Shown here: positions 1,706-19,130 of the stretch, in pieces | Numbering within the stretch: position 1 is the first letter of the stretch | How the letters are laid out: each line of letters opens with the position of its first letter | Origin: Cantharellus purpuraceus | Taxonomy: Eukaryota; Basidiomycota; Agaricomycetes; Cantharellales; Hydnaceae | Reading direction: 5' to 3' | Assembly: GCA_025174535.1 (NCBI GenBank) | Contig: JALBUN010000044.1 | Location: 1 to 19,130, forward strand | DNA length: 19,130 nt | Made by a program: the position numbers and the translations under genes | The notes under the pieces: generated by a model | Database searches by the model: none | Seen by the model: only the letters and a program-made list of their open reading frames with translations | What the model was told of the DNA's origin: nothing

Positions 1706-1735
1706 TGTTGAGTATAAGACCTCAATCATGCCCCT

Positions 1736-2388: not shown

Positions 2389-3460
2389 GAGGATGAAGAT
2401 GATCTCCGCAAGTCTCAAGAATGGCCCACTACTAGTGCAACTGTTGAGAATACAGCACTTGCAGCAAAACTCACGTGGTGCAAAAGGGAAACAAGGCAGC
2501 GTAGACCATTCAAAAACGGAGTGTCACAATTGCAAGAAGCTTGGGCATATACGTGCTAATTGTTGGGCTAAAGGTGGTGGAAAAGAAGGTCAGGGCCCTC
2601 ATGGGAAATGTACAAGGCATAGCAGAGGTAGCGGTAATAAGGGTGGAAGTGGTGGCAATACTGTTACCACTGCTGCGAATACTGCAACTATGATGGCACC
2701 AGCAAAGTCAGTGGTTCAAGACACTGATTATGCATTTACCTCATCTTTTGGTGGTACTGCGCTTGCAAAAACCGTCACCAATACAACACTGGACAAAATT
2801 GTGTTGATCTTTGACACTGGTGCTAATACTCATATGTCGCCCTACCGTAACCTCTTTCAAAACTACACACCATTCACCACACCGAGAATTATCCATGCCG
2901 CTGACAAAACCGTCTTCAAGGCTATCGGAAAAGGGGACATTATTATCTCCATCCCAAATGAGAAGGGAAACATGAAACTTACCCTCACAGATGTGCTATA
3001 TGCACCGACTATTGCCTTCACACTGATTTCCGTCAGCCGCTGTGATCAGGCTGGCTTCTTTGCCACTTTTGGAGGAGGCCAATGTGTTGTGTGCGATTGC
3101 AATGGCAAGACATTTGCTGCAATCCCAAGTTACCATGGATTGTATCTTCTTGAACAGGAGACAAATGTTAACCCTTATGTTGTGAACATTTCACTTGGTG
3201 ACTTACATGCTTGTCTTGGTCACGTATCACATACTGCCGCCCAACGTTTAATACAGGAAGGCTACATGACTGGTATTCACCTTGACCCAAATTCTTCAGC
3301 TGGATTTTGTGAAGCATGTGTCAAAGCCAAAGTTACTTGTATGCCTGTCCCAAAAGAACGAGTTAATGATCATGTAAAGGCACAGGGAGAGAAGATTCAT
3401 ACCGATGTCTGGGGACCAGCGCAGACTGAAACCATTGCTGGAAAGCATTACGGAATCATG
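2389..3460 (+). mobile_element. Ty1/copia retrotransposon fragment (Gag end, protease, HHCC and start of integrase), interrupted
   Basis: The reading frame of 2387-3511 shows a Gag zinc knuckle CHNCKKLGHIRANC (CX2CX4HX4C, 2522-2563) and a retropepsin-like active site IFDTGANTHMSP (DTG at 2813-2821). A GAG-pre-integrase HHCC follows (HACLGH near 3206, CEAC near 3308-3319), then the first catalytic aspartate region of the integrase, IHTDVWGP. This order (Gag, protease, integrase) is that of Ty1/copia. Upstream, another frame (2389 to about 2480) reads ENTALAAKLT-like Gag sequence, so a frameshift precedes the knuckle. A stop at 2371 ends that frame upstream. After HYGIM the frame runs into the 7.18-kb repeat and stops at 3509-3511. 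Reverse transcriptase and RNase H are absent here, and whether they follow the array on the right cannot be seen. Confidence 0.88.
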
Positions 3461-3472
3461 TCAGTATACAAT

Positions 3473-3503
3473 ATTCTAATGTATATGAGATATACATCAG
3501 AAT
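3473..3503. repeat. Hairpin at the left end of copy A
   Basis: ATTCTAATGTATAT and ATATACATCAGAAT are complementary over 14 positions with one mismatch and flank a GAG loop. The hairpin begins 22 bases inside the unit. Its place beside the junction suggests a recombination, replication or termination site (inference). Confidence 0.7.
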
Positions 3504-4071
3504 TTCAATGATACATAAAGCCAGGGAGTTACAATTTGGATATCTTAAAAGATTTCGGATGTGTGAAATTTTCATAAATATAAACATATATTCTATATTT
3601 TAATAAACTTTAAAAGATAAGATATTTGGTTGAGATGAACATAATCATTTACATGGATATAATAGGAATGTATGTATTAATATAATTGGTATTATATAGG
3701 GTATTTAGATATACAAATACCAGGTGGGGATTAAAGATAGTTCAAATTATGTTATAAGTATTGTATAAGAAAGAATCAATGATATTTGGATGTTCCTTCA
3801 AGAGAGTTGCCACCACTAAATGGGGAAAAAAGAATTATTTTTGAGAATTATGCCAAAATATCACAATATGTTTTAATCTAGTATATTGTGTAAAATTTGA
3901 GAATCATGTTGAAATATGAAAATAAGTTTGAATTGAAGTGTATTGTATAAAATTTGAGGAAAATAGGTTGTATATACGTATTTGTTGTATTTCTGAACAA
4001 GCGTCTTAGGAAAGTCTTGGAAACAAACACCTTTAATGCAGTGAAGCTATTTTTAAAACAAAGTAACTTAG
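3504..4071. other. AT-rich non-coding region, copy A
   Basis: No ORF of interest is found on either strand. The stretch is very AT-rich and contains an imperfect 56-base tandem duplication (3843-3898 and 3899 to about 3954). It also holds a G-run/A-run (GGGGAAAAAA) whose composition differs in each copy. Copies B (10683-11252) and C (17861-18429) carry the same region. A replication origin or 3' regulatory function is possible but unsupported. Confidence 0.5.
3843..3954 (+). repeat. Imperfect 56-bp tandem duplication, copy A
   Basis: Both halves begin GAGAATYATG and end with GTATTGTGTAAAATTTGA-like sequence (TATTGTATAAAATTTGA in the second), with diverged centres. The same pair is present in copies B and C. 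Confidence 0.6.
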
Positions 4072-4398
4072 TTAGGGCATAGTGGTAGATAATCTTGTTC
4101 TAACATGAGACTGTATGACTATCCCTCGTACTTTAGGGTGCAATACCATCAGATTTTCCATCCAAAGTGGTGGAAAATAATGATCCTGCTCCATACTAGT
4201 ATATAACTCTGTTAATTTCTGTTCCAGAAGTGTGCCATCAGTACATCTGTATAAAGTCAGTGATTGGAACCTTGATATTTATAAAGGAACTTACCTCAGA
4301 AACAAATCATGGAGGGATCCTATCCGAGATATATACCAATCATTAACTCTTCTATCAAACTCTATCTTGCATTGAAGCATAAAAGAGAGCATCTTCAT
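4072..4398 (-). CDS. Spliced 92-residue protein, copy A
   Basis: Exon 1 (4398-4295) starts at ATGAAGATGC and encodes 34 codons plus two bases. The intron (4294-4247, 48 nt) starts GTAAGT, contains a CACTGAC branch-point-like sequence and ends TTATACAG. Exon 2 (4246-4072) restores an open frame of 57 codons and ends at TAA. Splicing removes an immediate in-frame TAA (AGG TAA), so the intron explains an otherwise short ORF. The product begins MKMLSFMLQC and ends RLSTTMP. It is soluble-looking, with clusters of charged and aromatic residues (DWYISRIG, DHYFPPLWM). I recognise no family. It diverges from the coiled-coil gene at 4546 across an inverted-repeat promoter. Sequence and splice signals are conserved in copies B and C. 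An additional 5' exon cannot be excluded. Confidence 0.7.
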
Positions 4399-4401
4399 AA
4401 T

Positions 4402-4529
4402 GCTTATAACATAAAAACATAATAATCATTTTATTAAGAAAGCAAGATGTATATATCTACTGCCTATACAAAATATCAAATGTTCAGAAAAAAATGATTA
4501 TTATGTTTTTTCATTTCTGTTTTATAAGC
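4402..4529. promoter_or_regulatory. Divergent promoter with a long inverted repeat, copy A
   Basis: Between the start codons at 4398 (minus) and 4546 (plus), the arm 4402-4432 begins GCTTATAA and contains AAAAACATAATAATCATTTT (4413-4432). The opposite arm is 4491-4529: its first 20 bases are the exact reverse complement of that 20-mer, and it ends TTATAAGC, the reverse complement of the outer eight. About 58 bases of spacer lie between the arms. The symmetry matches the symmetric gene layout, so a shared regulatory site read by a dimeric protein is plausible. A replication or recombination hairpin is the alternative. Confidence 0.6.
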
Positions 4530-4545
4530 AGAGAGGGATTTGAAA

Positions 4546-5628
4546 ATGTCACAAATCTTTGAAGATATAAAAGCAATCAAAGGCTGGATAAGTGACAATG
4601 ATGCACTGATAAAAGCTATGGCAAGTCAAATGGAAGTAAAAGATGAATTAATATCTGATCTTATAAATGTCAAGTCTTGGATGAGTGAAAAGGATAGGCA
4701 GATCACTATACTTGAACAACAGGTTAATTCCCAGAGTCAGGAAATTCAGGTGCTTAAGAAACAGGTTGAGGAAAAAAATACAATTATAACTACTTTGACA
4801 GACAGGAAAGAGAATTTAGATGAATGGATGAGTGAAATGAATGATATTGTATCAGGATTTGGAACAGATATTCATAAACTTCAGAGACAGGTTAATAGGT
4901 GTGTTGCCACAATATCAGACCATGGAACAGATATTCATCAACAGGTCAATACACATAATGCAGAGAATCTTATATTGGACCATAGAACAGATATTCATAA
5001 ACTTCAGAAACAGGTTAATAGATGTATTGCAACAATATCAGACATTGTGGAATGGAAATCTGAAGTGCATGAGTGGATTGTAGAAACAGATGATACTGTA
5101 GTGGAACTTGGAACAGACATTAATAAACTTCAGAAACAGGGTGATAAATATAAAGCAATAATATCTGAGATTGTTGACTGGAAATTTGATATGAATCACT
5201 GGGCTGGAAAACAAGAACAGGAGGTAACAAGGTTACAGGAAAATGGTACCAGAAAGGTGACATTTAAGATAGTGAAAAGAGGTGTAGATTATATACTTAT
5301 AGACTCAGATCAGTCTTGTAGACTAAATAGAATGGAATTATTCATAAATGGTGAGCCTAGAAAACTATCTACAATATATACTATGAAGAATGAAATGTCA
5401 TCATATGACGTAGATGGTAATAGGATTAATTTTCAAACATGGAAGCAAGGAATGACTCAAGGTTCAAGGCATCAAGAAAAAAGGTCTAAGGAACGATCTG
5501 ATTCAGACTCTGATCAATCTGATTCAGACTCTGATCAATCTGATTCAGACTCTGATCAATCTGATTCAAACTCTGATCAATCTCAAATTCCTAGTTCAAG
5601 AAAAAGATGTAGAGGGAGAACCCAGTAA
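4546..5628 (+). CDS. 360-residue coiled-coil protein with Ser-Asp repeats, copy A
   Basis: The first ATG in the frame is at 4546 (MSQIFEDIKA). Residues 1-235 are predicted from the sequence to be largely helical coiled coil. Modules resembling EWxxExxDxVxxxGTDI-K-LQ-Q recur at about 92-125 and 174-208, and shorter TDIH-LQKQVNRC-ATISD copies occur at about 107-166. Residues 236-305 look like a small beta-rich globular segment (KVTFKIVKRGVDYILID...MELFINGEPRKL). Residues 317-345 are four SDSDSDQ repeats, which resemble casein kinase 2 substrates, and the tail SSRKRCRGRTQ is basic and could be a nuclear signal. There is no signal peptide or membrane segment. I recognise no family; the shape recalls fibre, tether or scaffold proteins. 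It is transcribed divergently from the spliced 92-residue gene. Confidence 0.8.
   Translation: MSQIFEDIKAIKGWISDNDALIKAMASQMEVKDELISDLINVKSWMSEKDRQITILEQQVNSQSQEIQVLKKQVEEKNTIITTLTDRKENLDEWMSEMNDIVSGFGTDIHKLQRQVNRCVATISDHGTDIHQQVNTHNAENLILDHRTDIHKLQKQVNRCIATISDIVEWKSEVHEWIVETDDTVVELGTDINKLQKQGDKYKAIISEIVDWKFDMNHWAGKQEQEVTRLQENGTRKVTFKIVKRGVDYILIDSDQSCRLNRMELFINGEPRKLSTIYTMKNEMSSYDVDGNRINFQTWKQGMTQGSRHQEKRSKERSDSDSDQSDSDSDQSDSDSDQSDSNSDQSQIPSSRKRCRGRTQ
5497..5580 (+). repeat. Four 21-bp tandem repeats inside the coiled-coil gene, copy A
   Basis: TCTGATTCAGACTCTGATCAA occurs three times exactly and a fourth time with one G-to-A change, encoding SDSDSDQ three times and SDSNSDQ once. The length is a multiple of three, so expansion would keep the frame. 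Confidence 0.9.
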
Positions 5629-5642
5629 TGTAAGCCTCCAAA

Positions 5643-6445
5643 GACGTAGGATACAAGGTCACCTTGGAGTGAATGGCTGTCCATGAGCAGTCTAATGATG
5701 TCCCTATCTGTCGTTTCATTTCTCCATGATTTCCCCTTTAGTAGCTCAACTTCACACGCTTCGTCAGCTGGCTTGATCAGCATTTCTTGCATCATTTGCT
5801 CCTCATATTGTGTCGTTGTGCCCTGGGAATTTGTATATAAAAGGGCGCTAGTTTTCGCCTTTGGAATCAAAAAACAAGTTTTCAGCCGGCACTCTAAAGT
5901 CAAAGTCCAAGCTCTAAGTCTACACTCTACATCACAATCCATCATCTCTACACTGAGGTAAAACACCTTGGTTCAACGATCAGATTTCCCTCCGCCACCG
6001 AGAGGTTGCTTCTCCTGAAACCAGCTTTCGTGTACCTCCCAACCGGGCTCCGCATTGTCATCCAGTCACAGAGCACGATCAGCCATCGGGACCGACCTTT
6101 TGCTCCCATCCTCATCCAACCACAGAGCACTATCCCACTTCCCTGTTACGTACCCCTCGCCCTGATTGATCTTTGGAGTGCTGAACAACTGCGTTACACA
6201 CCGTCTGCTTGCTAGGACCATTGCGTGCAGGCTTATAGGATCTATTCCATAAGCGAACCGACACCGAGTGACATCATCAGGCTGCTCAAGGACAACGATT
6301 CAATTATCTGGTACACCATGCCGCTGCAAAGTCTCACCTACTGTCTGCTCAGTAAGTGCATCATTATCAACCCTCACAGCCAAAAGGCTGTCCTTTGATA
6401 ATGTGATCAAACTGCTCCTGACAAGGTGACCTTCCATCCGACGTC
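5643..6445. repeat. Approximately 0.8-kb segment with inverted-repeat-like ends and host-like composition, copy A
   Basis: The left end reads GACGTAGGATACAAGGTCAC (5643-5662). The right end read on the minus strand is GACGTCGGATGGAAGGTCAC. Over 25 bases the ends match at 21. The interior is visibly less AT-rich than the rest of the unit, has no gene-like ORF and contains a TATA box. It also holds two similar stretches, CATCCAGTCACAGAGCACGA near 6060 and CATCCAACCACAGAGCACTA near 6113. It starts 15 bases after the coiled-coil stop codon. Possible readings are a nested non-autonomous DNA transposon, a captured host promoter, or an LTR fragment. No target-site duplication is evident. Confidence 0.45.
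5834..5843 (+). promoter_or_regulatory. TATA box in the 0.8-kb segment, copy A
   Basis: TATATAAAAG followed by GGCGC is the strongest core-promoter-like sequence in the unit. Downstream is a pyrimidine/CA-rich leader and a GAGGTAAAA donor-like site near 5955. The transcript it would drive, either a long leader towards the small ORFs or a non-coding RNA, is not defined. Confidence 0.45.
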
Positions 6446-6512
6446 ATTACCATGATATGATAATATCCAATCGGCTGGTACACCTATTTAGCTATGCAGC
6501 AAAGAATTTGGA

Positions 6513-6674
6513 ATGAAAGACTGGCAAGATAGGAAACAAGGAACTGGTAGAAGAATGATAGATGAAAGGACAGGGAATTCTGTATTGGACTTTGTTGTAG
6601 TATTCAGAACGAGTGCATGCATCTGGCTATTGACAACTTTAGAAAATATATATAATTCAATTTATAAATATTAG
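6513..6674 (+). CDS. Small hypothetical protein, 53 codons, copy A
   Basis: ATG at 6513 opens a frame beginning MKDWQDRKQGTGRR and ending at TAG 6672-6674. The first half is basic and polar; the second (LDFVVVF...ACIWLLTTLENI) is hydrophobic and could form one short membrane segment. It is the first ORF downstream of the TATA-bearing segment. Its length is near the chance limit, and only the near-identical copy B supports it. I recognise no family. Confidence 0.3.
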   Translation: MKDWQDRKQGTGRRMIDERTGNSVLDFVVVFRTSACIWLLTTLENIYNSIYKY

Positions 6675-6755
6675 ATAAAAATATGGACATTCTGCTCTTC
6701 AGAACTATGCACATATCTAGTAAATAAATTTTATATATCCTTCTTTATTGACATC

Positions 6756-6908
6756 ATGGGTAAAGATAAGAAGTGCAATGATTGGAGTTCTCATGATCTT
6801 TGGGATTATGGTATAATGGTTGACACACAATGGACTAAACAGTTTTTTGAGACAGATTTTAGAGATATTACTTTAGATACTGATGATGAGATCCTCAGTT
6901 TTGATTAA
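6756..6908 (+). CDS. Small Trp-rich acidic protein, 50 codons, copy A
   Basis: ATG at 6756 begins MGKDKKCNDWSSHDLWDYG. Three tryptophans (10, 16, 26) and an acidic end (DITLDTDDEILSFD) precede a TAA at 6906-6908. The next ORF (7002) is in the same frame, and the intervening reading frame has only that TAA and a TAG at 6963. In copy B the TAA codon reads TAC. The ORF may therefore be the first exon of a longer gene ending at 7247; a 45-nt GTGAAATG...TACTTAG segment (6921-6965) would be an in-frame intron, although its donor is weak. No family recognised. Confidence 0.4.
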   Translation: MGKDKKCNDWSSHDLWDYGIMVDTQWTKQFFETDFRDITLDTDDEILSFD

Positions 6909-7001
6909 AAAAAAGATGATGTGAAATGTTTAAAGGAGTCTTCAAGAAAATTTTTACATACTTAGATAAGGAAGAATAAGGGAAAAAGTGCTTTAGAGGA
7001 A

Positions 7002-7247
7002 ATGACAATACCTTGCATTCAAACATCGAGAAAAGTCCCCCAGTTTTACCTAGTAACTGTTACAAGAGAGCTTGATCATGCTATCACAGAAGGGTTGTTT
7101 TCAGAAGTGATAACAAATGTAAGGTGTTGTTTTCCTGTAACAGTAACAGGTATGAAACATATTAATAGTAGAAAGAATGTTCTACAGTGTTTTGAAGCAT
7201 TTAAGAAGTTTGTAGATATACTTGATAGGAAATTAGATGAGAAATAA
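7002..7247 (+). CDS. Hypothetical protein, 81 residues, copy A
   Basis: ATG at 7002 begins MTIPCIQTSRKVPQFYLVTV and the frame ends at TAA 7245-7247. The pattern is alternating hydrophobic strands (FYLVTV, FPVTVTG) with a C-terminal amphipathic helix (LQCFEAFKKFVDILDRKL). It looks like a small soluble alpha/beta protein. Upstream the frame is open back to a TAG at 6963 (IRKNKGKSALEE), so the true start may be an upstream exon. No family recognised. A TTT/TTC difference from copy B is synonymous, which mildly supports coding. Confidence 0.55.
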   Translation: MTIPCIQTSRKVPQFYLVTVTRELDHAITEGLFSEVITNVRCCFPVTVTGMKHINSRKNVLQCFEAFKKFVDILDRKLDEK

Positions 7248-7285
7248 TGAGTTTTGAAAATTAATATATAATAACCAGAGACACC

Positions 7286-7465
7286 ATGTTGAATATACCC
7301 GAGATTGGTGATAAGGTATCATTTATCAATGCAAGAACACAAATGACAGTGACAGGTATTGTTACATTAGTAACTGGCACTTTGTCAGATGACACTTTGC
7401 TAATAACTGTTACTTATGATGACAATGAGATTCAGCTACCACTACGTGCACTACAACAAGTATAA
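7286..7465 (+). CDS. Small beta-barrel-like protein, 59 residues, copy A
   Basis: ATG at 7286 begins MLNIPEIGDKVSF; the frame ends at TAA 7463-7465. GDKVSF, TGIVTLV, LLITVTYDDNEIQL and the final LRALQQV are spaced like strands of a small SH3/Tudor-type barrel, a fold common in chromatin and nucleic-acid binding proteins (inference from pattern, not a family match). It lies 38 bases after the 81-residue ORF on the same strand. Identical in copy B. Confidence 0.5.
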   Translation: MLNIPEIGDKVSFINARTQMTVTGIVTLVTGTLSDDTLLITVTYDDNEIQLPLRALQQV

Positions 7466-7516
7466 GATAAATCAGATAAGTGAATATGCAATATTTTTAT
7501 TCACTCAAATGAAGGC

Positions 7517-7741
7517 ATGTGTGGTGATAGTGAAAAAATTCAAATTACTTGGAAGTGCAATCATATAACTACTACATCTGTAGTTACAGATTGTAAGGAT
7601 ATTAAATGTCCTAAGAGCTCTGAACATTCAAAAAATACTCATCATGATACTAATGGTACTTATTGTTGTGTGAACAAAAGTTCAAATCTTGAAATTATCC
7701 AAGTGAAAATAGATGAAAAATGTTGTGAGTGTAGAAACTAG
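7517..7741 (+). CDS. Cys-rich protein, 74 residues, copy A
   Basis: ATG at 7517 begins MCGDSEKIQITWKCNH. Nine cysteines (2, 14, 26, 31, 50, 51, 69, 70, 72) and histidines at 16, 37, 42 and 43 suggest zinc binding or disulphides, though no classical finger spacing is met. There is no signal peptide, so a cytoplasmic or nuclear metal-binding role is more likely than a secreted one. The stop is 18 bases from the stop of the convergent 216-residue gene. An upstream ATG at 7509 is in another frame and leads to a short ORF. Copy B has an in-frame nonsense change. Confidence 0.5.
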   Translation: MCGDSEKIQITWKCNHITTTSVVTDCKDIKCPKSSEHSKNTHHDTNGTYCCVNKSSNLEIIQVKIDEKCCECRN

Positions 7742-7759
7742 GACTTTTAAATCAACTCC

Positions 7760-8410
7760 TTATGAGGATTCTTTGAACATCTGATTTCTTATACTTTGGA
7801 ATATAATGTCAATAGCATTAGAACACTCTTCAAACTGAGCTTCTATGCTGTATCCAGAGGAAGGATATACAACAATTGAAACACCCTGATTGTTATTGGT
7901 GGTTTCATATAATTTTAACCTACCATCCTTAGTTATGATCATACCATAGATTGTGATTTTACTTTTCTTGAAAACTCTCTGCTGTTGTTTCAATGCAACA
8001 ACCATTGATGTAACCAAATTGTTATACACATCACAGTTCTTACAAGTTTCCCCAGCAATAGAAATATCACACTTCTTGCCAGTTTCTCTAGCAATAGAAA
8101 TATTACAACTAGGCAGATTATCCTGTTGCATGGTTTGCAGACTTGACATACAATGATTTTGTTGAATCCAGGTTGAATTACTTATTTCATTGCCCTTTTC
8201 AATCATCTTATTGTACAGTGCTTCTGGTGTTTTATCTCTTTCCTGAGAAACCGATCCAGCTGGAAAGAAGTCCTTTGGGGGATTTCTTAATCTGAATTTT
8301 ATGTAGATGGTGTCAGAGTCTATATACAAAGGATTTTCATCATCCTCTGGTTCTTTTTTAACAAAGACAGTAGATATTTTACGAACAACTTGCTTAGAGA
8401 CAGACAACAT
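7760..8410 (-). CDS. 216-residue protein with a SUMO-site-like motif and internal repeat, copy A
   Basis: The minus-strand ORF runs from ATG at 8410 to 7760 without interruption. Residues 17-25 (VKKEPEDDE) match a sumoylation consensus followed by acidic residues, as found in nuclear proteins. Residues 102-113 and 114-125 are a tandem repeat, CNISIARETGKK and CDISIAGETCKN, followed by a further CD. A C-terminal part (about 133-205) has strand-like segments (KITIYGMIITKDGRLKLYE, VSIVVYPSSGYSIEAQF) and a terminal amphipathic helix. There is no membrane segment or known catalytic motif. It diverges from the transposase gene across 97 bases. Copies A and B encode identical proteins. Family unknown. 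Confidence 0.75.
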   Translation of the reverse strand: MLSVSKQVVRKISTVFVKKEPEDDENPLYIDSDTIYIKFRLRNPPKDFFPAGSVSQERDKTPEALYNKMIEKGNEISNSTWIQQNHCMSSLQTMQQDNLPSCNISIARETGKKCDISIAGETCKNCDVYNNLVTSMVVALKQQQRVFKKSKITIYGMIITKDGRLKLYETTNNNQGVSIVVYPSSGYSIEAQFEECSNAIDIIFQSIRNQMFKESS

Positions 8411-8507
8411 AGCTTCATAGAATAAATATTATTTAATTTAAAATTCAATTATCAAAAAAAATGAACATATTTTTGTTTTACTGTAATATAAGAGTATCTT
8501 AGTCAAA
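8411..8507. promoter_or_regulatory. Divergent promoter between the 216-residue gene and the transposase, copy A
   Basis: Ninety-seven very AT-rich bases separate the two start codons. TATTTAATTTAAAAT and AATATAAG-like stretches could serve as core elements in either direction. No inverted repeat like that at 4402-4529 is found here. Copy B (15592-15687) differs by one deleted C. Confidence 0.4.
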
Positions 8508-9987
8508 ATGCCCTCAGACCAGCAAAAACGCACAAAGGAGCAAAAAGAGAAAGAGCAAAAAGAGAAAGAAGAAAAAGAGCTTCAGCAACTTAAAATGTGG
8601 AATGATCAAAGGGACAGAGCATATAATAAGTTGATGGACAATCATTGGAATTTTCTATACACAAAGTGGCCTGTCTTAGAACACACAAAAAATATCATAG
8701 AACAAAACTAAAAGATATGAATGATATGGATGATGTAAAAAAAAGTAGTATATAACAAGCTTGGACCAATACCAGTTTTTTTCTTTCTTGTGGTATTTTT
8801 TTCAGTTGAAGAACATTCTACACCTTATAGAGAGATAGAAAAAGGCTTGTTAGTACTATATCATCTACTCAAAGGTCCTACTTATGAAGAAATAGGAAAT
8901 TTCATGCCATCAAGTAGCTTTTATGATGTTCATAAGGAATTTTATGGTCGTCTGCATCATCTTAACTTTGATCTAGATAAACAAGTTACTGATTCACTGC
9001 GTACAATGTTCTCAAATATAATAATAAGGATATTATCAGCTCTTATAAAGAATCCTCCAAAAATGGAATCAGTGACATTACTTCTTGATGGTCATGATAC
9101 AAGAGGAATTTTGATTGGATCGGCATCTGAATAGGGGTACTCATATAAATTTAAAAAGGCAGGATTTCGTACTCAAGTATGCATTGACATTAATCAAATG
9201 GTTCTATTCACCTCACCTTCATTGGCATGTAAACTAAATCCTGATGCAAAAATGTTTGTAGAGATGGCTGTATGGAATAAAATAGATAAGAATGATCAGA
9301 TAGGCTTTGATGGAGCTTATCCATCTGCTATTCCAGAAGTAGTAAAGGCAAGTATATTAAAGCCTAAGAACTTCTTTTATCCTTTTCGGAAGCCAAAAAA
9401 TGTTGAACTTAAACCTGAAGAAAAGATTTTTAATAAGAAGTTTGGTGCCTTTCGTTCAACAGTAGAAGCATTCTTTGGAGGGTTTGCAAGATTGTTTGAA
9501 AAATTTGATAATAAGAGATCTATTAGAACTACAAATCCTGCTGTCTTTAATCTGGAATTAAAGGTAGCATGTCTATTATGGAATATTAAGAAATTTGTAG
9601 AACTACGTAAGATCAAACCATCCCCTTATCATGAAAAATGGTGTGAACAATATTTTGATTACCCTGAGGAAGAGGACCCAGATATTGAGCCACCCAGATC
9701 ATTACTGGAAAGAGCAGAAGATGTTGACAAGATGACTCAATCTCAACAACGACTATTAGAAAGATGTGAGTATGATGTGGAGATGCATTATGAGACTGAA
9801 AATGAAGTAGAACAAATAATAAGGCAAAGAAAAAGGAAAGTACGTAGAATATTTAGTTAAATGGAAATGTTATGCAGAGAAAACTTGGGAAGCAACATCA
9901 AGCTTTAAATCTACAGAATGTATTAAAGAGTATTGGAAAGACAATAGTAATAATATTATTGTATACCTATGCTACATTCAACTGTAA
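8508..9987 (+). pseudogene. DDE_Tnp_4 (PIF/Harbinger-like) transposase with chromodomain, broken, copy A
   Basis: Three collinear pieces are present. First, 8508-8711 encodes a K/E/Q-rich basic coil ending WNFLYTKWPVLEH. Second, about 8790-9860 encodes the catalytic domain: PYREIEKGLLVLYHLLKGPT, then LLLDGHDTRG, then GFDGAYPS about 74 residues later, then FRSTVEAFFGGF about 52 residues further. These are D, D and E positions as expected of DDE_Tnp_4. Third, a chromodomain lies in another frame to 9987. Breaks are a frame change after 8711, an eight-base A run at 8737-8744, a TAG at 9132-9134 (GAG in copy B), and a +1 shift near 9840. Its role would be cutting and joining the element's ends. 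Part of 8745-8805 might be an intron (GTAGTATAT...TTTTTTTCAG). Coding capacity in this copy appears lost unless the changes are sequencing errors or recoded. Confidence 0.75.
9804..9942 (+). other. Chromodomain split by a +1 frame change, copy A
   Basis: In the transposase frame the sequence reads NEVEQIIRQRKRK. Skipping the G at 9840 gives YVEYLVKWKCYAEKTWEA and then ...CIKEYWKD. This is the chromodomain pattern (VEKIL, EYLVKWKGY, TWEP). Of the three methyl-lysine cage aromatics, W (LVKW) and Y (KCY) are present, while the first is replaced by Asn. The domain sits at the C-terminus of the transposase, as chromodomains do in chromoviral integrases. The same shift occurs in copy B. Confidence 0.72.
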
Positions 9988-10042
9988 ATTTTTTTCCCAG
10001 AATAAAATTGAATATTTGTATGTTTTATACTTATAGGTATCT

Positions 10043-10540: not shown

Positions 10541-10651
10541 TGGCATGTCTAAATCTATGGAGAAAGAAGCTTGTTGATGATATAAGGTGATGATTTTTGT
10601 TTTTAAAATGACCTCCCTAGACGCTTGTTCGGAATCATGTCAGTATACAAT

Positions 10652-10682
10652 ATTCTAATGTATATGAGATATACATCAGAAT
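10652..10682. repeat. Hairpin at the left end of copy B
   Basis: The same 14-base arms and GAG loop as at the start of copy A, again 22 bases from the unit boundary. Confidence 0.7.
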
Positions 10683-11252
10683 TTCAATGATACATAAAGC
10701 CAGGGAGTTACAATTTGGATATCTTAAAAGATTTCGGATGTGTGAAATTTTCATAAATATAAACATATATTCTATATTTTAATAAACTTAAAAAGATAAG
10801 ATATTTGGTTGAGATGAACATAATCATTTACATGGATATAATAGGAATGTATGTATTAATATAATTGGTATTATATAGGGTATTTAGATATACAAATACC
10901 AGGTGGGGATTAAAGATAGTTCAAATTATGTTATAAGTATTGTATAAGAAAGAATCAATGATATTTGGATGTTCCTTCAAGAGAGTTGCCACCACTAAAT
11001 GGAAAAAAAAAAGAATTATTTTTGAGAATTATGCCAAAATATCACAATATGTTTTAATCTAGTATATTGTGTAAAATTTGAGAATCATGTTGAAATATGA
11101 AAATAAGTTTGAATTGAAGTGTATTGTATAAAATTTGAGGAAAATAGGTTGTATATACGTATTTGTTGTATTTCTGAACAAGCGTCTTAGGAAAGTCTTG
11201 GAAACAAACACCTTTAATGCAGTGATGCTATTTTTAAAACAAAGTAACTTAG

Positions 11253-11579
11253 TTAGGGCATAGTGGTAGATAATCTTGTTCTAACATGAGACTGTATGAC
11301 TATCCCTCGTACTTTAGGGTGCAATACCATCAGATTTTCCATCCAAAGTGGTGGAAAATAATGATCCTGCTCCATACTAGTATATAACTCTGTTAATTTC
11401 TGTTCCAGAAGTGTGCCATCAGTACATCTGTATAAAGTCAGTGATTGGAACCTTGATATTTATAAAGGAACTTACCTCAGAAACAAATCATGGAGGGATC
11501 CTATCCGAGATATATACCAATCATTAACTCTTCTATCAAACTCTATCTTGCATTGAAGCATAAAAGAGAGCATCTTCAT
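11253..11579 (-). CDS. Spliced 92-residue protein, copy B
   Basis: Exon 1 is 11579-11476, the intron 11475-11428 (GTAAGT...CACTGAC...ACAG) and exon 2 11427-11253. I see no difference from the copy A coding sequence. A single A-to-T change lies just outside the stop (GTGATGC against GTGAAGC). Confidence 0.7.
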
Positions 11580-11582
11580 AAT

Positions 11583-11710
11583 GCTTATAACATAAAAACA
11601 TAATAATCATTTTATTAAGAAAGCAAGATGTATATATCTACTGCCTATACAAAATATCAAATGTTCAGAAAAAAATGATTATTATGTTTTTTCATTTCTG
11701 TTTTATAAGC
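11583..11710. promoter_or_regulatory. Divergent promoter with a long inverted repeat, copy B
   Basis: Arms at 11583-11613 and 11672-11710, identical to copy A. Confidence 0.6.
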
Positions 11711-11726
11711 AGAGAGGGATTTGAAA

Positions 11727-12809
11727 ATGTCACAAATCTTTGAAGATATAAAAGCAATCAAAGGCTGGATAATTGACAATGATGCACTGATAAAAGCTAT
11801 GGCAAGTCAAATGGAAGTAAAAGATGAATTAATATCTGATCTTATAAATGTCAAGTCTTGGATGAGTGAAAAGGATAGGCAGATCACTATACTTGAACAA
11901 CAGGTTAATTCCCAGAGTCAGGAAATTCAGGTGCTTAAGAAACAGGTTGAGGAAAAAAATACAATTATAACTACTTTGACAGACAGGAAAGAGAATTTAG
12001 ATGAATGGATGAGTGAAATGAATGATATTGTATCAGGATTTGGAACAGATATTCATAAACTTCAGAGACAGGTTAATAGGTGTGTTGCCACAATATCAGA
12101 CCATGGAACAGATATTCATCAACAGGTCAATACACATAATGCAGAGAATCTTATATTGGACCATAGAACAGATATTCATAAACTTCAGAAACAGGTTAAT
12201 AGATGTATTGCAACAATATCAGACATTGTGGAATGGAAATCTGAAGTGCATGAGTGGATTGTAGAAACAGATGATACTGTAGTGGAACTTGGAACAGACA
12301 TTAATAAACTTCAGAAACAGGGTGATAAATATAAAGCAATAATATCTGAGATTGTTGACTGGAAATTTGATATGAATCACTGGGCTGGAAAACAAGAACA
12401 GGAGGTAACAAGGTTACAGGAAAATGGTACCAGAAAGGTGACATTTAAGATAGTGAAAAGAGGTGTAGATTATATACTTATAGACTCAGATCAGTCTTGT
12501 AGACTAAATAGAATGGAATTATTCATAAATGGTGAGCCTAGAAAACTATCTACAATATATACTAGGAAGAATGAAATGTCATCATATGACGTAGATGGTA
12601 ATAGGATTAATTTTCAAACATGGAAGCAAGGAATGACTCAAGGTTCAAGGCATCAAGAAAAAAGGTCTAAGGAACGATCTGATTCAGACTCTGATCAATC
12701 TGATTCAGACTCTGATCAATCTGATTCAGACTCTGATCAATCTGATTCAAACTCTGATCAATCTCAAATTCCTAGTTCAAGAAAAAGATGTAGAGGGAGA
12801 ACCCAGTAA
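11727..12809 (+). CDS. 360-residue coiled-coil protein, copy B
   Basis: The same protein as at 4546-5628 with two substitutions, serine 16 to isoleucine (AGT to ATT) and methionine 280 to arginine (ATG to AGG). The SDSDSDQ repeats and basic tail are unchanged. Confidence 0.8.
   Translation: MSQIFEDIKAIKGWIIDNDALIKAMASQMEVKDELISDLINVKSWMSEKDRQITILEQQVNSQSQEIQVLKKQVEEKNTIITTLTDRKENLDEWMSEMNDIVSGFGTDIHKLQRQVNRCVATISDHGTDIHQQVNTHNAENLILDHRTDIHKLQKQVNRCIATISDIVEWKSEVHEWIVETDDTVVELGTDINKLQKQGDKYKAIISEIVDWKFDMNHWAGKQEQEVTRLQENGTRKVTFKIVKRGVDYILIDSDQSCRLNRMELFINGEPRKLSTIYTRKNEMSSYDVDGNRINFQTWKQGMTQGSRHQEKRSKERSDSDSDQSDSDSDQSDSDSDQSDSNSDQSQIPSSRKRCRGRTQ
12678..12761 (+). repeat. Four 21-bp tandem repeats inside the coiled-coil gene, copy B
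   Basis: The same four units, in the same order and with the same variant in the last, as in copy A. Confidence 0.9.
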
Positions 12810-12823
12810 TGTAAGCCTCCAAA

Positions 12824-13626
12824 GACGTAGGATACAAGGTCACCTTGGAGTGAATGGCTGTCCATGAGCAGTCTAATGATGTCCCTATCTGTCGTTTCAT
12901 TTCTCCATGATTTCCCCTTTAGTAGCTCAACTTCACACGCTTCGTCAGCTGGCTTGATCAGCATTTCTTGCATCATTTGCTCCTCATATTGTGTCGTTGT
13001 GCCCTGGGAATTTGTATATAAAAGGGCGCTAGTTTTCGCCTTTGGAATCAAAAAACAAGTTTTCAGCCGGCACTCTAAAGTCAATGTCCAAGCTCTAAGT
13101 CTACACTCTACATCACAATCCATCATCTCTACACTGAGGTAAAACACCTTGGTTCAACGATCAGATTTCCCTCCGCCACCGAGAGGTTGCTTCTCCTGAA
13201 ACCAGCTTTCGTGTACCTCCCAACCGGGCTCCGCATTGTCATCCAGTCACAGAGCACGATCAGCCATCGGGACCGACCTTTTGCTCCCATCCTCATCCAA
13301 CCACAGAGCACTATCCCACTTCCCTGTTACGTACCCCTCGCCCTGATTGATCTTTGGAGTGCTGAACAACTGCGTTACACACCGTCTGCTTGCTAGGACC
13401 ATTGCGTGCAGGCTTATAGGATCTATTCCATAAGCGAACCGACACCGAGTGACATCATCAGGCTGCTCAAGGACAACGATTCAATTATCTGGTACACCAT
13501 GCCGCTGCAAAGTCTCACCTACTGTCTGCTCAGTAAGTGCATCATTATCAACCCTCACAGCCAAAAGGCTGTCCTTTGATAATGTGATCAAACTGCTCCT
13601 GACATGGTGACCTTCCATCCGACGTC
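12824..13626. repeat. Approximately 0.8-kb segment with inverted-repeat-like ends, copy B
   Basis: As in copy A, with one A-to-T change inside the right arm (ACATGGTGACC) and one A-to-T change in the interior near 13085. Confidence 0.45.
13015..13024 (+). promoter_or_regulatory. TATA box in the 0.8-kb segment, copy B
   Basis: Identical TATATAAAAG and surrounding sequence to copy A. Confidence 0.45.
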
Positions 13627-13693
13627 ATTACCATGATATGATAATATCCAATCGGCTGGTACACCTATTTAGCTATGCAGCAAAGAATTTGGA

Positions 13694-13855
13694 ATGAAAG
13701 ACTGGCAAGATAGGAAACAAGGAACTGGTAGAAGAATGATAGATGAAAGGACAGGGAATTCTGTATGGGACTTTGTTGTAGTATTCAGAACGAGTGCATG
13801 CATCTGGCTATTGACAACTTTAGAAAATATATATAATTCAATTTATAAATATTAG
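13694..13855 (+). CDS. Small hypothetical protein, 53 codons, copy B
   Basis: The same ORF as at 6513-6674 with one change, TTG to TGG at codon 25 (leucine to tryptophan). Confidence 0.3.
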   Translation: MKDWQDRKQGTGRRMIDERTGNSVWDFVVVFRTSACIWLLTTLENIYNSIYKY

Positions 13856-13936
13856 ATAAAAATATGGACATTCTGCTCTTCAGAACTATGCACATATCTA
13901 GTAAATAAATTTTATATATCCTTCTTTATTGACATC

Positions 13937-14104
13937 ATGGGTAAAGATAAGAAGTGCAATGATTGGAGTTCTCATGATCTTTGGGATTATGGTATAATGG
14001 TTGACACACAATGGACTAAACAGTTTTTTGAGACAGATTTTAGAGATATTACTTTAGATACTGATGATGAGATCCTCAGTTTTGATTACAAAAAGATGAT
14101 GTGA
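13937..14104 (+). CDS. Small Trp-rich acidic protein, 55 codons, copy B
   Basis: Same as 6756-6908 through residue 50. It then continues YKKMM to TGA, because TAC replaces TAA and the following A run is shorter. Confidence 0.4.
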   Translation: MGKDKKCNDWSSHDLWDYGIMVDTQWTKQFFETDFRDITLDTDDEILSFDYKKMM

Positions 14105-14182
14105 AATGTTTAAAGGAGTCTTCAAGAAAATTTTTTACATACTTAGATAAGGAAGAATAAGGGAAAAAGTGCTTTAGAGGAA

Positions 14183-14428
14183 ATGACAATACCTTGCATT
14201 CAAACATCGAGAAAAGTCCCCCAGTTTTACCTAGTAACTGTTACAAGAGAGCTTGATCATGCTATCACAGAAGGGTTGTTTTCAGAAGTGATAACAAATG
14301 TAAGGTGTTGTTTCCCTGTAACAGTAACAGGTATGAAACATATTAATAGTAGAAAGAATGTTCTACAGTGTTTTGAAGCATTTAAGAAGTTTGTAGATAT
14401 ACTTGATAGGAAATTAGATGAGAAATAA
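14183..14428 (+). CDS. Hypothetical protein, 81 residues, copy B
   Basis: Protein identical to the copy A product. The only coding difference seen is a synonymous TTT to TTC. Confidence 0.55.
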   Translation: MTIPCIQTSRKVPQFYLVTVTRELDHAITEGLFSEVITNVRCCFPVTVTGMKHINSRKNVLQCFEAFKKFVDILDRKLDEK

Positions 14429-14466
14429 TGAGTTTTGAAAATTAATATATAATAACCAGAGACACC

Positions 14467-14646
14467 ATGTTGAATATACCCGAGATTGGTGATAAGGTAT
14501 CATTTATCAATGCAAGAACACAAATGACAGTGACAGGTATTGTTACATTAGTAACTGGCACTTTGTCAGATGACACTTTGCTAATAACTGTTACTTATGA
14601 TGACAATGAGATTCAGCTACCACTACGTGCACTACAACAAGTATAA
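14467..14646 (+). CDS. Small beta-barrel-like protein, 59 residues, copy B
   Basis: No difference seen from 7286-7465. Confidence 0.5.
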   Translation: MLNIPEIGDKVSFINARTQMTVTGIVTLVTGTLSDDTLLITVTYDDNEIQLPLRALQQV

Positions 14647-14697
14647 GATAAATCAGATAAGTGAATATGCAATATTTTTATTCACTCAAATGAAGGC

Positions 14698-14922
14698 ATG
14701 TGTGGTGATAGTGAAAAAATTCAAATTACTTGGAAGTGCAATCATATAACTACTACATCTGTAGTTACAGATTGTAAGGATATTAAATGTCCTAAGAGCT
14801 CTGAACATTAAAAAAATACTCATCATGATACTAATGGTACTTATTGTTGTGTGAACAAAAGTTCAAATCTTGAAATTATCCAAGTGAAAATAGATGAAAA
14901 ATGTTGTGAGTGTAGAAACTAG
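14698..14922 (+). pseudogene. Cys-rich protein, truncated by a stop, copy B
   Basis: Codon 38 is TAA (14809-14811) where copy A has TCA, a C-to-A change next to an A run. The remaining frame to 14922 is otherwise as in copy A. Five of the nine cysteines are lost if the base is real; a consensus error extending the homopolymer is the alternative. Confidence 0.55.
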
Positions 14923-14940
14923 GACTTTTAAATCAACTCC

Positions 14941-15591
14941 TTATGAGGATTCTTTGAACATCTGATTTCTTATACTTTGGAATATAATGTCAATAGCATT
15001 AGAACACTCTTCAAACTGAGCTTCTATGCTGTATCCAGAGGAAGGATATACAACAATTGAAACACCCTGATTGTTATTGGTGGTTTCATATAATTTTAAC
15101 CTACCATCCTTAGTTATGATCATACCATAGATTGTGATTTTACTTTTCTTGAAAACTCTCTGCTGTTGTTTCAATGCAACAACCATTGATGTAACCAAAT
15201 TGTTATACACATCACAGTTCTTACAAGTTTCCCCAGCAATAGAAATATCACACTTCTTGCCAGTTTCTCTAGCAATAGAAATATTACAACTAGGCAGATT
15301 ATCCTGTTGCATGGTTTGCAGACTTGACATACAATGATTTTGTTGAATCCAGGTTGAATTACTTATTTCATTGCCCTTTTCAATCATCTTATTGTACAGT
15401 GCTTCTGGTGTTTTATCTCTTTCCTGAGAAACCGATCCAGCTGGAAAGAAGTCCTTTGGGGGATTTCTTAATCTGAATTTTATGTAGATGGTGTCAGAGT
15501 CTATATACAAAGGATTTTCATCATCCTCTGGTTCTTTTTTAACAAAGACAGTAGATATTTTACGAACAACTTGCTTAGAGACAGACAACAT
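14941..15591 (-). CDS. 216-residue protein, copy B
   Basis: The protein is identical to copy A, making this one of the best conserved genes of the unit. Confidence 0.75.
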   Translation of the reverse strand: MLSVSKQVVRKISTVFVKKEPEDDENPLYIDSDTIYIKFRLRNPPKDFFPAGSVSQERDKTPEALYNKMIEKGNEISNSTWIQQNHCMSSLQTMQQDNLPSCNISIARETGKKCDISIAGETCKNCDVYNNLVTSMVVALKQQQRVFKKSKITIYGMIITKDGRLKLYETTNNNQGVSIVVYPSSGYSIEAQFEECSNAIDIIFQSIRNQMFKESS

Positions 15592-15687
15592 AGCTTCATA
15601 GAATAAATATTATTTAATTTAAAATTCAATTATAAAAAAAATGAACATATTTTTGTTTTACTGTAATATAAGAGTATCTTAGTCAAA

Positions 15688-17164
15688 ATGCCCTCAGACC
15701 AGCAAAAACGCACAAAGGAGCAAAAAGAGAAAGAGAAAAAAGAGAAAGAAGAAAAAGAGCTTCAGCAACTTAAAATGTGGAATGATCAAAGGGACAGAGC
15801 ATATAATAAGTTGATGGACAATCATTGGAATTTTCTATACACAAAGTGGCCTGTCTTAGAACACAAAAATATCATAGAACAAAACTAAAAGATATGAATG
15901 ATATGGATGATGTAAAAAAAGTAGTATATAACAAGCTTGGACCAATACCAGTTTTTTTCTTTCTTGTGGTATTGTTTTCAGTTGAAGAACATTCTACACC
16001 TTATAGAGAGATAGAAAAAGGCTTGTTAGTACTATATCATCTACTCAAAGGTCCTACTTATGAAGAAATAGGAAATTTCATGCCATCAAGTAGCTTTTAT
16101 GATGTTCATAAGGAATTTTATGGTCGTCTGCATCATCTTAACTTTGATCTAGATAAACAAGTTACTGATTCACTGCGTACAATGTTCTCAAATATAATAA
16201 TAAGGATATTATCAGCTCTTATAAAGAATCCTCCAAAAATGGAATCAGTGACATTACTTCTTGATGGTCATGATACAAGAGGAATTTTGATTGGATCGGC
16301 ATCTGAAGAGGGGTACTCATATAAAATTAAAAAGGCAGGATTTCGTACTCAAGTATGCATTGACATTAATCAAATGGTTCTATTCACCTCACCTTCATTG
16401 GCATGTAAACTAAATCCTGATGCAAAAATGTTTGTAGAGATGGCTGTATGGAATAAAATAGATAAGAATGATCAGATAGGCTTTGATGGAGCTTATCCAT
16501 CTGCTATTCCAGAAGTAGTAAAGGCAAGTATATTAAAGCCTAAGAACTTCTTTTATCCTTTTCGGAAGCCAAAAAAATGTTGAACTTAAACCTGAAGAAA
16601 AGATTTTTAATAAGAAGTTTGGTGCCTTTCGTTCAACAGTAGAAGCATTCTTTGGAGGGTTTGCAAGATTGTTTGAAAAATTTGATAATAAGAGATCTAT
16701 TAGAACTACAAATCCTGCTGTCTTTAATCTGGAATTAAAGGTAGCATGTCTATTATGGAATATTAAGAAATTTGTAGAACTACGTAAGATCAAACCATCC
16801 CCTTATCATGAAAAATGGTGTGAACAATATTTTGATTACCCTGAGGAAGAGGACCCAGATATTGAGCCACCCAGATCATTACTGGAAAGAGCAGAAGATG
16901 TTGACAAGATGACTCAATCTCAACAACGACTATTAGAAAGATGTGAGTATGATGTGGAGATGCATTATGAGACTGAAAATGAAGTAGAACAAATAATAAG
17001 GCAAAGAAAAAGGAAAGTACGTAGAATATTTAGTTAAATGGAAATGTTATGCAGAGAAAACTTGGGAAGCAACATCAAGCTTTAAATCTACAGAATGTAT
17101 TAAAGAGTATTGGAAAGACAATAGTAATAATATTATTGTATACCTATGCTACATTCAACTGTAA
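15688..17164 (+). pseudogene. DDE_Tnp_4 (PIF/Harbinger-like) transposase with chromodomain, broken, copy B
   Basis: The same organisation as copy A. The coil ORF is 15688-15888. The catalytic ORF is open from 15825 across the position of the copy A TAG (here GAAGAG), but it fails at 16571-16577, where seven A replace the six of copy A. After that, 16669-17037 continues the E-containing region in another frame. The frame changes after the coil ORF and before the chromodomain are shared with copy A. The two copies are therefore broken at different places in the catalytic domain. Confidence 0.75.
16981..17119 (+). other. Chromodomain split by a +1 frame change, copy B
   Basis: Identical to the copy A segment, including the position of the frame change, so the change predates the duplication or has a function. 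Confidence 0.72.
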
Positions 17165-17220
17165 ATTTTTTTTCCCAGAATAAAATTGAATATTTGTATG
17201 TTTTATACTTATAGGTATCT

Positions 17221-17718
17221 ATGGAGACTGATCCATTACTGAAACAGCGTCTCAATCAACAGTTTTACCAAAAGCCTTTTCACAGCAATCCACACCGGCT
17301 AGCTAATTGTACAACGTGTGACTGGTACCCCTTTGGGCAGTATCTGGACCGTTCATATGCTGAAGGTGAAGTGTTCCAGCTTTCAAAGTATCCTCATATC
17401 AAATATGTATTTCTTGGTCTACAACCTGATAAAATAGGCTATAATGAAAGTGATCCTATTTTTGTAGCAGAATTTGCAGGTTTTCTGAATAAAACCAACA
17501 GATTTGTAAGTGGTTCTGATCCAACCTCTGGATATGCACACATTATAACCACACATGTGAATCAGGCGTTTGTTAGACAGCCAGGCCCAGATATAAATAG
17601 GCAGAAACTATATCTTGGCCGTACAGTGCACATGATCTACATAACTAGTATTGGTATACTATTGGCTTTGCTGTGTTGGACAGTGTCCAGACATACCAAT
17701 GAAGATAAGAATTCATAA
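17221..17718 (+). CDS. 165-residue protein with C-terminal membrane segment, copy B
   Basis: Protein identical to 10043-10540. The upstream spacer has one extra T in the TTTTTTTCCCAG run. It ends 89 bases before the start of copy C. Confidence 0.75.
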   Translation: METDPLLKQRLNQQFYQKPFHSNPHRLANCTTCDWYPFGQYLDRSYAEGEVFQLSKYPHIKYVFLGLQPDKIGYNESDPIFVAEFAGFLNKTNRFVSGSDPTSGYAHIITTHVNQAFVRQPGPDINRQKLYLGRTVHMIYITSIGILLALLCWTVSRHTNEDKNS

Positions 17719-17829
17719 TGGCATGTCTAAATCTATGGAGAAAGAAGCTTGTTGATGATATAAGGTGATGATTTTTGTTTTTAAAATGACCTCCCTAGAC
17801 GCTTGTTCGGAATCATGTCAGTATACAAT

Positions 17830-17860
17830 ATTCTAATGTATATGAGATATACATCAGAAT
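17830..17860. repeat. Hairpin at the left end of copy C
   Basis: The same 14-base arms and GAG loop, 22 bases inside the third unit start. Confidence 0.7.
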
Positions 17861-18429
17861 TTCAATGATACATAAAGCCAGGGAGTTACAATTTGGATAT
17901 CTTAAAAGATTTCGGATGTGTGAAATTTTCATAAATATAAACATATATTCTATATTTTAATAAACTTTAAAAGATAAGATATTTGGTTGAGATGAACATA
18001 ATCATTTACATGGATATAATAGGAATGTATGTATTAATATAATTGGTATTATATAGGGTATTTAGATATACAAATACCAGGTGGGGATTAAAGATAGTTC
18101 AAATTATGTTATAAGTATTGTATAAGAAAGAATCAATGATATTTGGATGTTCCTTCAAGAGAGTTGCCACCACTAAATGGGAAAAAAAAGAATTATTTTT
18201 GAGAATTATGCCAAAATATCACAATATGTTTTAATCTAGTATATTGTGTAAAATTTGAGAATCATGTTGAAATATGAAAATAAGTTTGAATTGAAGTGTA
18301 TTGTATAAAATTTGAGGAAAATAGGTTGTATATACGTATTTGTTGTATTTCTGAACAAGCGTCTTAGGAAAGTCTTGGAAACAAACACCTTTAATGCAGT
18401 GAAGCTATTTTTAAAACAAAGTAACTTAG

Positions 18430-18756
18430 TTAGGGCATAGTGGTAGATAATCTTGTTCTAACATGAGACTGTATGACTATCCCTCGTACTTTAGGGTGCA
18501 ATACCATCAGATTTTCCATCCAAAGTGGTGGAAAATAATGATCCTGCTCCATACTAGTATATAACTCTGTTAATTTCTGTTCCAGAAGTGTGCCATCAGT
18601 ACATCTGTATAAAGTCAGTGATTGGAACCTTGATATTTATAAAGGAACTTACCTCAGAAACAAATCATGGAGGGATCCTATCCGAGATATATACCAATCA
18701 TTAACTCTTCTATCAAACTCTATCTTGCATTGAAGCATAAAAGAGAGCATCTTCAT
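18430..18756 (-). CDS. Spliced 92-residue protein, copy C
   Basis: Exon 1 is 18756-18653, the intron 18652-18605 and exon 2 18604-18430, all with the same splice signals and open frame as copies A and B. Confidence 0.7.
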
Positions 18757-18759
18757 AAT

Positions 18760-18887
18760 GCTTATAACATAAAAACATAATAATCATTTTATTAAGAAAG
18801 CAAGATGTATATATCTACTGCCTATACAAAATATCAAATGTTCAGAAAAAAATGATTATTATGTTTTTTCATTTCTGTTTTATAAGC
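18760..18887. promoter_or_regulatory. Divergent promoter with a long inverted repeat, copy C
   Basis: Arms at 18760-18790 and 18849-18887, the same as in copies A and B. Confidence 0.6.
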
Positions 18888-18903
18888 AGAGAGGGATTTG
18901 AAA

Positions 18904-19130
18904 ATGTCACAAATCTTTGAAGATATAAAAGCAATCAAAGGCTGGATAAGTGACAATGATGCACTGATAAAAGCTATGGCAAGTCAAATGGAAGTAAAAG
19001 ATGAATTAATATCTGATCTTATAAATGTCAAGTCTTGGATGAGTGAAAAGGATAGGCAGATCACTATACTTGAACAACAGGTTAATTCCCAGAGTCAGGA
19101 AATTCAGGTGCTTAAGAAACAGGTTGAGGA
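18904..19130 (+). CDS. Coiled-coil protein, copy C, 5' part only
   Basis: The first 75 codons and part of the next are present before the window ends. They match copy A, including serine at residue 16. Confidence 0.8.
   Translation, partial: MSQIFEDIKAIKGWISDNDALIKAMASQMEVKDELISDLINVKSWMSEKDRQITILEQQVNSQSQEIQVLKKQVE

Follow-up and report, generated by a model that had tools for sequence, protein, structure and literature searches.

A probable composite-like DNA transposon with terminal direct repeats, and its tandem arrays, in a fungal genome

Layout of the array and boundaries of the element

What kind of element is repeated head to tail at this locus, and how such an array may come about, is the question addressed here. 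The window analyzed is the whole of contig C44, a stretch of 19,130 bp in a 40.15-Mb fungal assembly of 50 contigs. Two 7.18-kb units lie in it head to tail (3451–10629 and 10630–17807, 99.6% identical), followed by a partial third (17808–19130). The junctions between the units are identical, which bears out the tandem organization given in a preliminary description of this DNA.

The junction ACGCTTGTT|CGGAATCATG had been taken in that description as the edge of the element, but it sits 10 bp inside a longer direct repeat. Thirty-six stretches (L039–L074) were fetched at the start of CGGAATCATG; of these, L058 lies in the middle of a dimer on contig C45 and the other 35 are 5′ ends. GACGCTTGTT immediately precedes CGGAATCATG or its variant in 32 of the 35 5′ ends, and each of the 27 3′ ends (L012–L038) is followed by another copy of the start region. 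The likeness past the 3′ end stops at about the same length in 26 of the latter, and continues in L027, which belongs to the C45 dimer. The element is thus organized as TDR-INT-TDR over approximately 7.7 kb, with a 6.6-kb gene-bearing stretch, INT, between two terminal direct repeats (TDRs) of about 565 bp. Each TDR starts with GACGCTTGTT, finishes with AACAAGCGTC and has its own 10-bp inverted ends (GA...TC), and 57 of 61 aligned copies measure 564–567 bp. The GC content is 26% in the TDR, and 35% in the unit compared with 52% in the flank. The triplets next to the TDRs on the INT side are TTA and CTA. The order in the window is TDR (without 10 bp)-INT-TDR-INT-TDR-INT (partial), as follows:

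2381–3450, + strand: copia-like fragment (Pol_BBD, gag_pre-integrs), adjoining the array and outside the element
3451–4005, + strand: first TDR, without its first 10 bp
4006–10619, + strand: INT copy 1, 6614 bp
10620–11186, + strand: second TDR, 567 bp, common to copies 1 and 2, with the ends GACGCTTGTT and AACAAGCGTC
11187–17797, + strand: INT copy 2, 6611 bp
17798–18363, + strand: third TDR, 566 bp, common to copies 2 and 3
18364–19130, + strand: INT copy 3, truncated at the contig end

Positions 1–1788 and 1753–3451 of the window match C1:1091412-1094866 at 99.4% and 99.5%, whereas the other scored paralogues of positions 100–1100 reach only 91–92%; C44 is, therefore, an allele or a duplicate of the C1 locus. 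At C1, about 835 bp of further flank precede the start of an element, and the left junction of C44 lacks this flank together with the initial 10 bp of the TDR. Consequently, the left end of the array in the window is no insertion boundary. This junction in a second version of the C1 flank, the short length of a contig that terminates within copy 3, and the small number of differences between its units, many of them adjacent to homopolymers, would all suit an array produced by the assembly, that is, a short leftover contig with chained repeat copies. Against this origin, which we regard as unlikely, the C44 units differ among themselves, and thus are not one read stretch repeated. Moreover, C45, a contig of 3.5 Mb, contains an internal dimer with TAA at both outer sides, corresponding to a single target duplication that encloses the dimer as a whole, and C38 has another shared-TDR junction, although the second copy there lacks an intact right end. 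The reality of the C44 array leans on these two cases, C44 being one odd short contig. The scarcity of differences between its units, and their frequent position at homopolymers, also imply that some frame breaks in C44 may be consensus errors.

Dispersed copies, target duplications and empty sites

The assembly was searched for copies and their orientations, as the preliminary description had suggested. The TDR start occurs 505 times (≤2 mismatches), never in reverse orientation. INT has 59 left and 61 right junctions (48 of the latter exact, and 8, 2 and 3 with 1, 2 and 3 mismatches, respectively), which pair into 52 INTs, 51 of them with 5,998–7,286 bp between patterns and one with 12,465; seven left and nine right ends are unpaired, some of them at contig ends. 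These counts imply that about 116 TDRs are attached to INT, and roughly 390 of the 505 are estimated to be unattached, MITE-like solo repeats. The end-paired INTs mostly stand singly (47/52), and five are in arrays. At four junctions in three places, a single TDR belongs to both adjacent INTs (C44 has two such junctions, C45 and C38 one each), and no INT-INT junction without a TDR was found among exact matches.

Both flanks were fetched for 20 of the 52 elements. An identical triplet is present on both sides in 18 of them, with 3.8 expected by mispairing, and the flanks agree over 4 bp in none of the 20. The triplets are TAA (6), TTA (5), ATA (2), CAA (2), TCA, TAG and TAT. Twenty solo TDRs were sampled from the first 100 of the 505 listed sites, and 17 of these had both ends; a triplet duplication is found in 13 of the 17 (1.6 expected). 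No matching duplication is seen in two of the 20 elements and four of the 17 solos. The preliminary description had set the array apart from ordinary DNA transposons, which sit singly between target-site duplications. This contrast finds no support, since the element too is mostly single between 3-bp target duplications.

Three empty sites were found, each with a single triplet and no TDR. The site on C24 corresponds to the L129 element on C35 (flanks identical at 140/140 and at 99.75% of 400 bases), that on C20 to the element at C15:69-76k and its twin on C26 (97.5% of 241 and 98.9% of 175), and that at C15:507k to the element at C15:458-466k (139/139 and 160/160). Structure, target duplications and empty sites are thus direct observations.

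Transposase, accessory genes and related systems

Several orphan ORFs are carried by each unit on both strands, as had been described, in addition to a transposase region. The genes of copy 1 are as follows:

4546–5628, + strand: gene for a coiled-coil protein, containing a tract of 21-bp repeats at 5491–5583
6675–7247, + strand: two short ORFs (6675–6908 and 6966–7247), matching a single 267-aa ORF of the relative L129
7265–7741, + strand: two short orphan ORFs (7265–7465 and 7484–7741), conserved in relatives
7760–8428, − strand: 222-aa orphan ORF
8487–9860, + strand: transposase gene region in three open pieces (8487–8711, 8739–9134 and 9135–9860)
9841–9984, + strand: chromodomain segment, in a frame different from that of the transposase
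10037–10540, + strand: 167-aa orphan ORF

The transposase-chromodomain gene that had been proposed for each unit holds as to its two readings, both below the curated Pfam cut-offs, and not as to a common frame. The transposase reading of the window unit matches DDE_Tnp_4 with an E-value of 8e-5 and 22.7 bits (curated 24.8), and the chromodomain segment scores 20.2 bits with an E-value of 5.7e-4 (curated 25.1). The transposase frame is uninterrupted in several genomic copies; in L080 and L081 it spans 456 aa from stop to stop. An additional frame break within the transposase is common to 19 copies, and all 41 occurrences of the stretch before the chromodomain (fetched loci, some overlapping) are alike and include the frame change. 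The transposase protein of the element scores 23.0 bits for DDE_Tnp_4, below the cut-off of 24.8, whereas its relatives P0001, P0011 and P0028 score 34.5–41.2 bits. Eighty homologues were found, up to 53% identical, and DDE_Tnp_4 and Chromo are both present in 53 of them; the named sources are Apophysomyces, Rhizomucor, Mortierella, Actinomortierella, Circinella and Thamnidium. Over 40 alignment rows, D193 and D267 never vary and E319 hardly does; these three are the predicted catalytic residues. The model of P0001 (pLDDT 90.5) aligns with piggyBac, Tn5 and chromodomains; Foldseek alone gave no match at an E-value of 0.001 or better, and the absence of solved Harbinger-type structures from the fold lists proves nothing. 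A PDB sequence search with the transposase alone returned nothing at E-values up to 1, and with the alignment it returned chromodomain proteins among the 60 of 79 matches listed. In NCBIfam, P0001 matches IS5 and IS982 models at E-values of 0.035–0.05, and the transposase of the element itself has no match.

No accessory ORF scanned has a Pfam match above cut-off, and neither the coiled-coil protein nor the 267-aa protein encoded by L129 has a homologue at an E-value of 0.001. The fold model of the 222-aa ORF is uninformative (pLDDT 33.6). Divergent relatives in the same genome keep the accessory genes at approximately 76–99% identity over the matched stretches; the identity of their transposases is 50–65% in L127 and L129, and 81–84% in L128. 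ARAGORN and Rfam gave no matches in the window.

Transposons of the PIF/Harbinger type have a 3-bp, TWA-rich (TAA/TTA) target duplication, a DDE_Tnp_4 transposase and a Myb-like second protein. The element resembles them in its 3-bp duplication (18/20 elements), which is TAA or TTA in 11 of the 18; DDE_Tnp_4 is a further common point for its relatives, and the match of the element itself falls below cut-off. It differs from them in its long terminal direct repeats, its chromodomain and its extra orphan genes; no Myb-like Pfam match was detected in the scanned ORFs, although the orphans could be diverged. The DDE_Tnp_4-Chromo proteins of Mucoromycota and metagenomes include transposases up to 53% identical to that of the element.

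The layout as such is that of the KolobokP elements of animals (Kojima & Bao 2022, PMC9587614), composite-like DNA transposons with solos and multimers, whose architecture that paper calls unlike that of any other DNA transposon. In both, an INT is framed by long direct repeats, each of which has short inverted termini of its own; the repeats also occur as solos, multimers have repeats in common (here at four junctions), and short target duplications flank all three forms, monomers, solos and multimers; the fungal ends GA...TC also agree with the KolobokP termini 5′-RR and YY-3′. By this analogy, the array in the window can be read as elements with a terminal direct repeat in common, like the KolobokP multimers (PMC9587614). 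The fungal TDR, in contrast, is of a length between the KolobokP repeats of ~450 and ~660 bp reported there, and the transposase appears Harbinger/IS5-like, with DDE_Tnp_4 and Chromo together in relatives. The C/DxxH motif of KolobokP and Kolobok between the second D and E is absent, with no histidine between D267 and E319, and on this motif the element falls outside Kolobok. Compared with KolobokP, which has a His-Me finger nuclease gene, no Pfam match for one was obtained among the scanned ORFs; several orphan genes are present, and the host is a fungus and not an animal. Bacterial composite transposons and IS26-type translocatable units, as treated in the same paper (PMC9587614), are likewise flanked by two smaller mobile units in direct orientation and occur in tandem forms, whereas the end repeats of the fungal element are non-coding and its transposase lies inside.

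Literature searches, in which subscription journals were thinly covered, found neither a composite-like transposon of this kind in fungi nor a described family for the multi-gene mobile element, in line with the preliminary description. The architecture of the fungal element is already known from KolobokP in animals; what would be new is the other transposase type and the fungal host. Such a second case would mean more than one origin of composite-like transposons in eukaryotes.

Exchange through the repeats and formation of the array

The two TDRs of an element differ by 0.34% on average (20 elements), with seven pairs identical and 16 of the 20 having ≤2 differences, whereas TDRs of different elements differ by 1.9–2.0%. 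None of 100,000 re-pairings gave a within-pair divergence as low, and the own partner is the nearest TDR in 16 of the 20, ties counted. Four of the 20 pairs differ at 4–9 sites; a pair outside this sample differs at 5/562, and its twin at 7/561. In 30 copies, the last 2 kb of INT vary much less than the TDR, the level of variation changing in a step where the two meet. Divergence at the INT 3′ end is 0.31% compared with 1.9% in the TDR (19 elements, the outlier C45b left out), and the corresponding contrast on the left side is weak (5 copies). C7 and C15c have 0/2024 differences in the INT end and 15/565 and 15/532 in the TDRs. The TDR haplotypes look mosaic, and the four-gamete rule is broken in 288/630 TDR site pairs compared with 24/120 in INT; the TDR distances are still correlated with those of INT (Mantel r 0.34, p 0.0002). 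The combination of alike pairs, diverse TDRs, uniform INT and mosaic haplotypes indicates that whole-unit movement alone fails to give the pattern, and that exchange through the TDRs must be frequent. Some of the repeat differences may be consensus errors, because the twins C15/C26 have identical flanks (0/206 and 0/944) and differ in INT (3/934) and in the TDRs (4/1127). In C15b, there are four differences within the TDR pair, while the flanks of its empty twin site are identical, so that a non-identical pair seems to have travelled. This speaks for pairs that are homogenised later and not made alike at insertion.

We consider it probable that the element is a composite-like DNA transposon TDR-INT-TDR, that the array is a multimer, (TDR-INT)n-TDR, sharing TDRs, and that exchange keeps the pairs alike. 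The DDE transposase encoded by INT would act on the 10-bp inverted ends of every TDR. The outermost pair of ends would move the whole ~7.7-kb element, and the pair within one TDR would move a 565-bp MITE, with duplication of 3 bp at insertion in either case. The array would most likely have formed at a single insertion, either by unequal exchange between sister-chromatid TDRs or when a TDR took up a TDR-INT circle. The element may pass through a circular or concatemeric stage, as suggested in the preliminary description; excision, circles and transposition of the element are predictions from the sequence pattern. Exchange among the ~500 TDR copies, including both TDRs of one element, may keep most pairs near-identical, and could likewise account for the observed diverged TDR alleles around a nearly uniform INT. 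The authors of PMC9587614 discuss unequal crossover, circle uptake by solo repeats and endonuclease-induced exchange for KolobokP. Circle uptake by a solo TDR through a single crossover, without later conversion, predicts pairs about as different as unrelated TDRs and is, given the likeness of 16 of the 20 pairs, not the main route.

The pairs could also be alike from the outset. A full element might regenerate its repeat pair if an INT circle or repair template joined a resident solo TDR replicatively, in a cointegrate-like manner or through break repair with copying of the resident TDR. The two sides would then be identical at first, and INT would in this way colonise solo TDRs. The sixfold greater diversity of the TDRs compared with the INT 3′ end, the divergence step at the repeat edge, the C7/C15c comparison and the nearness of own partners would all fit, and the INT-side triplets TTA and CTA resemble the target duplication with one change. 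We nevertheless hold this route to be rather doubtful, in view of three empty sites without even a solo TDR, of the C15b pair that seems to have travelled non-identical (empty-twin flanks 139/139 and 160/160), and of a TDR-INT distance correlation as for units travelling whole. With similar reserve, INT may be regarded as a homing-like passenger of its own MITE family, with a TDR-INT circle or repair template converting solo TDRs to full elements. If so, a 6.6-kb gene block would spread and multiply in tandem via hundreds of ready-made landing sites, the resident TDR being copied to both sides, and its spread would be partly uncoupled from transposition.

Near-identical paired direct repeats with many solos would also be expected if the TDRs were the LTRs of a non-autonomous retrotransposon that had captured genes. 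LTR retrotransposons have TG...CA ends and a target duplication of 4–6 bp. Here, the 10-bp inverted ends are GA...TC, the target duplications are 3 bp and the repeats are far more diverse than the internal end; these features lead us to reject an LTR retrotransposon, a reading to which we give almost no credence. A DDE_Tnp_4-like transposase is present as well, and no reverse transcriptase was found in the INT ORFs scanned, although non-autonomous members would lack one anyway. A virus-like element had also been considered in the preliminary description, and an AT-rich, multi-gene unit with orphan genes, placed head to tail, would fit an integrated virus or plasmid concatemer. This origin is very improbable: the ORFs scanned contain no polymerase or capsid domain, in agreement with the preliminary description, and no packaging domain; among 38 stretches that matched a pattern in one scan of viral contigs none is a relative of the transposase; and the element is dispersed as single copies with target duplications. 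As a composite-like transposon with ~50 full copies, ~390 solos and low divergence, the element would be a favourable system for the study of paired-end likeness and multimer formation.

As a separate observation, DUF6535, a domain typical of mushroom-forming fungi, has 132 matches in the assembly (150 of 184 candidates scored).

Chromodomain segment and divergent relatives

9841–9984 (+ strand): chromodomain coding segment, in a frame different from that of the transposase

The chromodomain segment is out of frame with the transposase in 41 of 41 occurrences in the fetched loci. This arrangement differs from that of relatives, in which the chromodomain is in frame with the transposase, and corresponds either to loss of the domain or to a segment that is read in an unusual way.

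Three older, divergent relatives in the same genome, L127 (contig C23), L128 (C18) and L129 (C35), retain the accessory genes with a transposase that is up to half different. The pattern resembles what would be expected if different lineages had swapped transposase and accessory genes.

Variation within the internal region

5491–5583: 21-bp repeat tract inside the coiled-coil gene (L005:3560–4080 in the copy on contig C1)
about 5640–6480: GC-richer stretch (core GC 44–54%)

The 21-bp tract comprises ~4 units in the window versus ~25 in the C1 copy, and this difference in unit number partly explains why the internal region varies in length. The GC-richer stretch, which is probably a nested insertion, has inverted ends that resemble AAGGTCACCTTG, and is partly absent from contig C38, L128 and L129.

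Left flank and duplicated loci

1–3450: left flank of the array, a member of another high-copy repeat family

This family has 594 candidates, of which 40 were scored, most of them at 91–92%; its members display long minus-strand frames with cysteine-rich motifs.

A number of loci are present as two copies whose flanks are identical (C15:69–77k and C26:126–135k; C29:79k and C8:14k; C38:37k and C36:3k), and the assembly therefore seems to contain some regions as duplicates or as both haplotypes.
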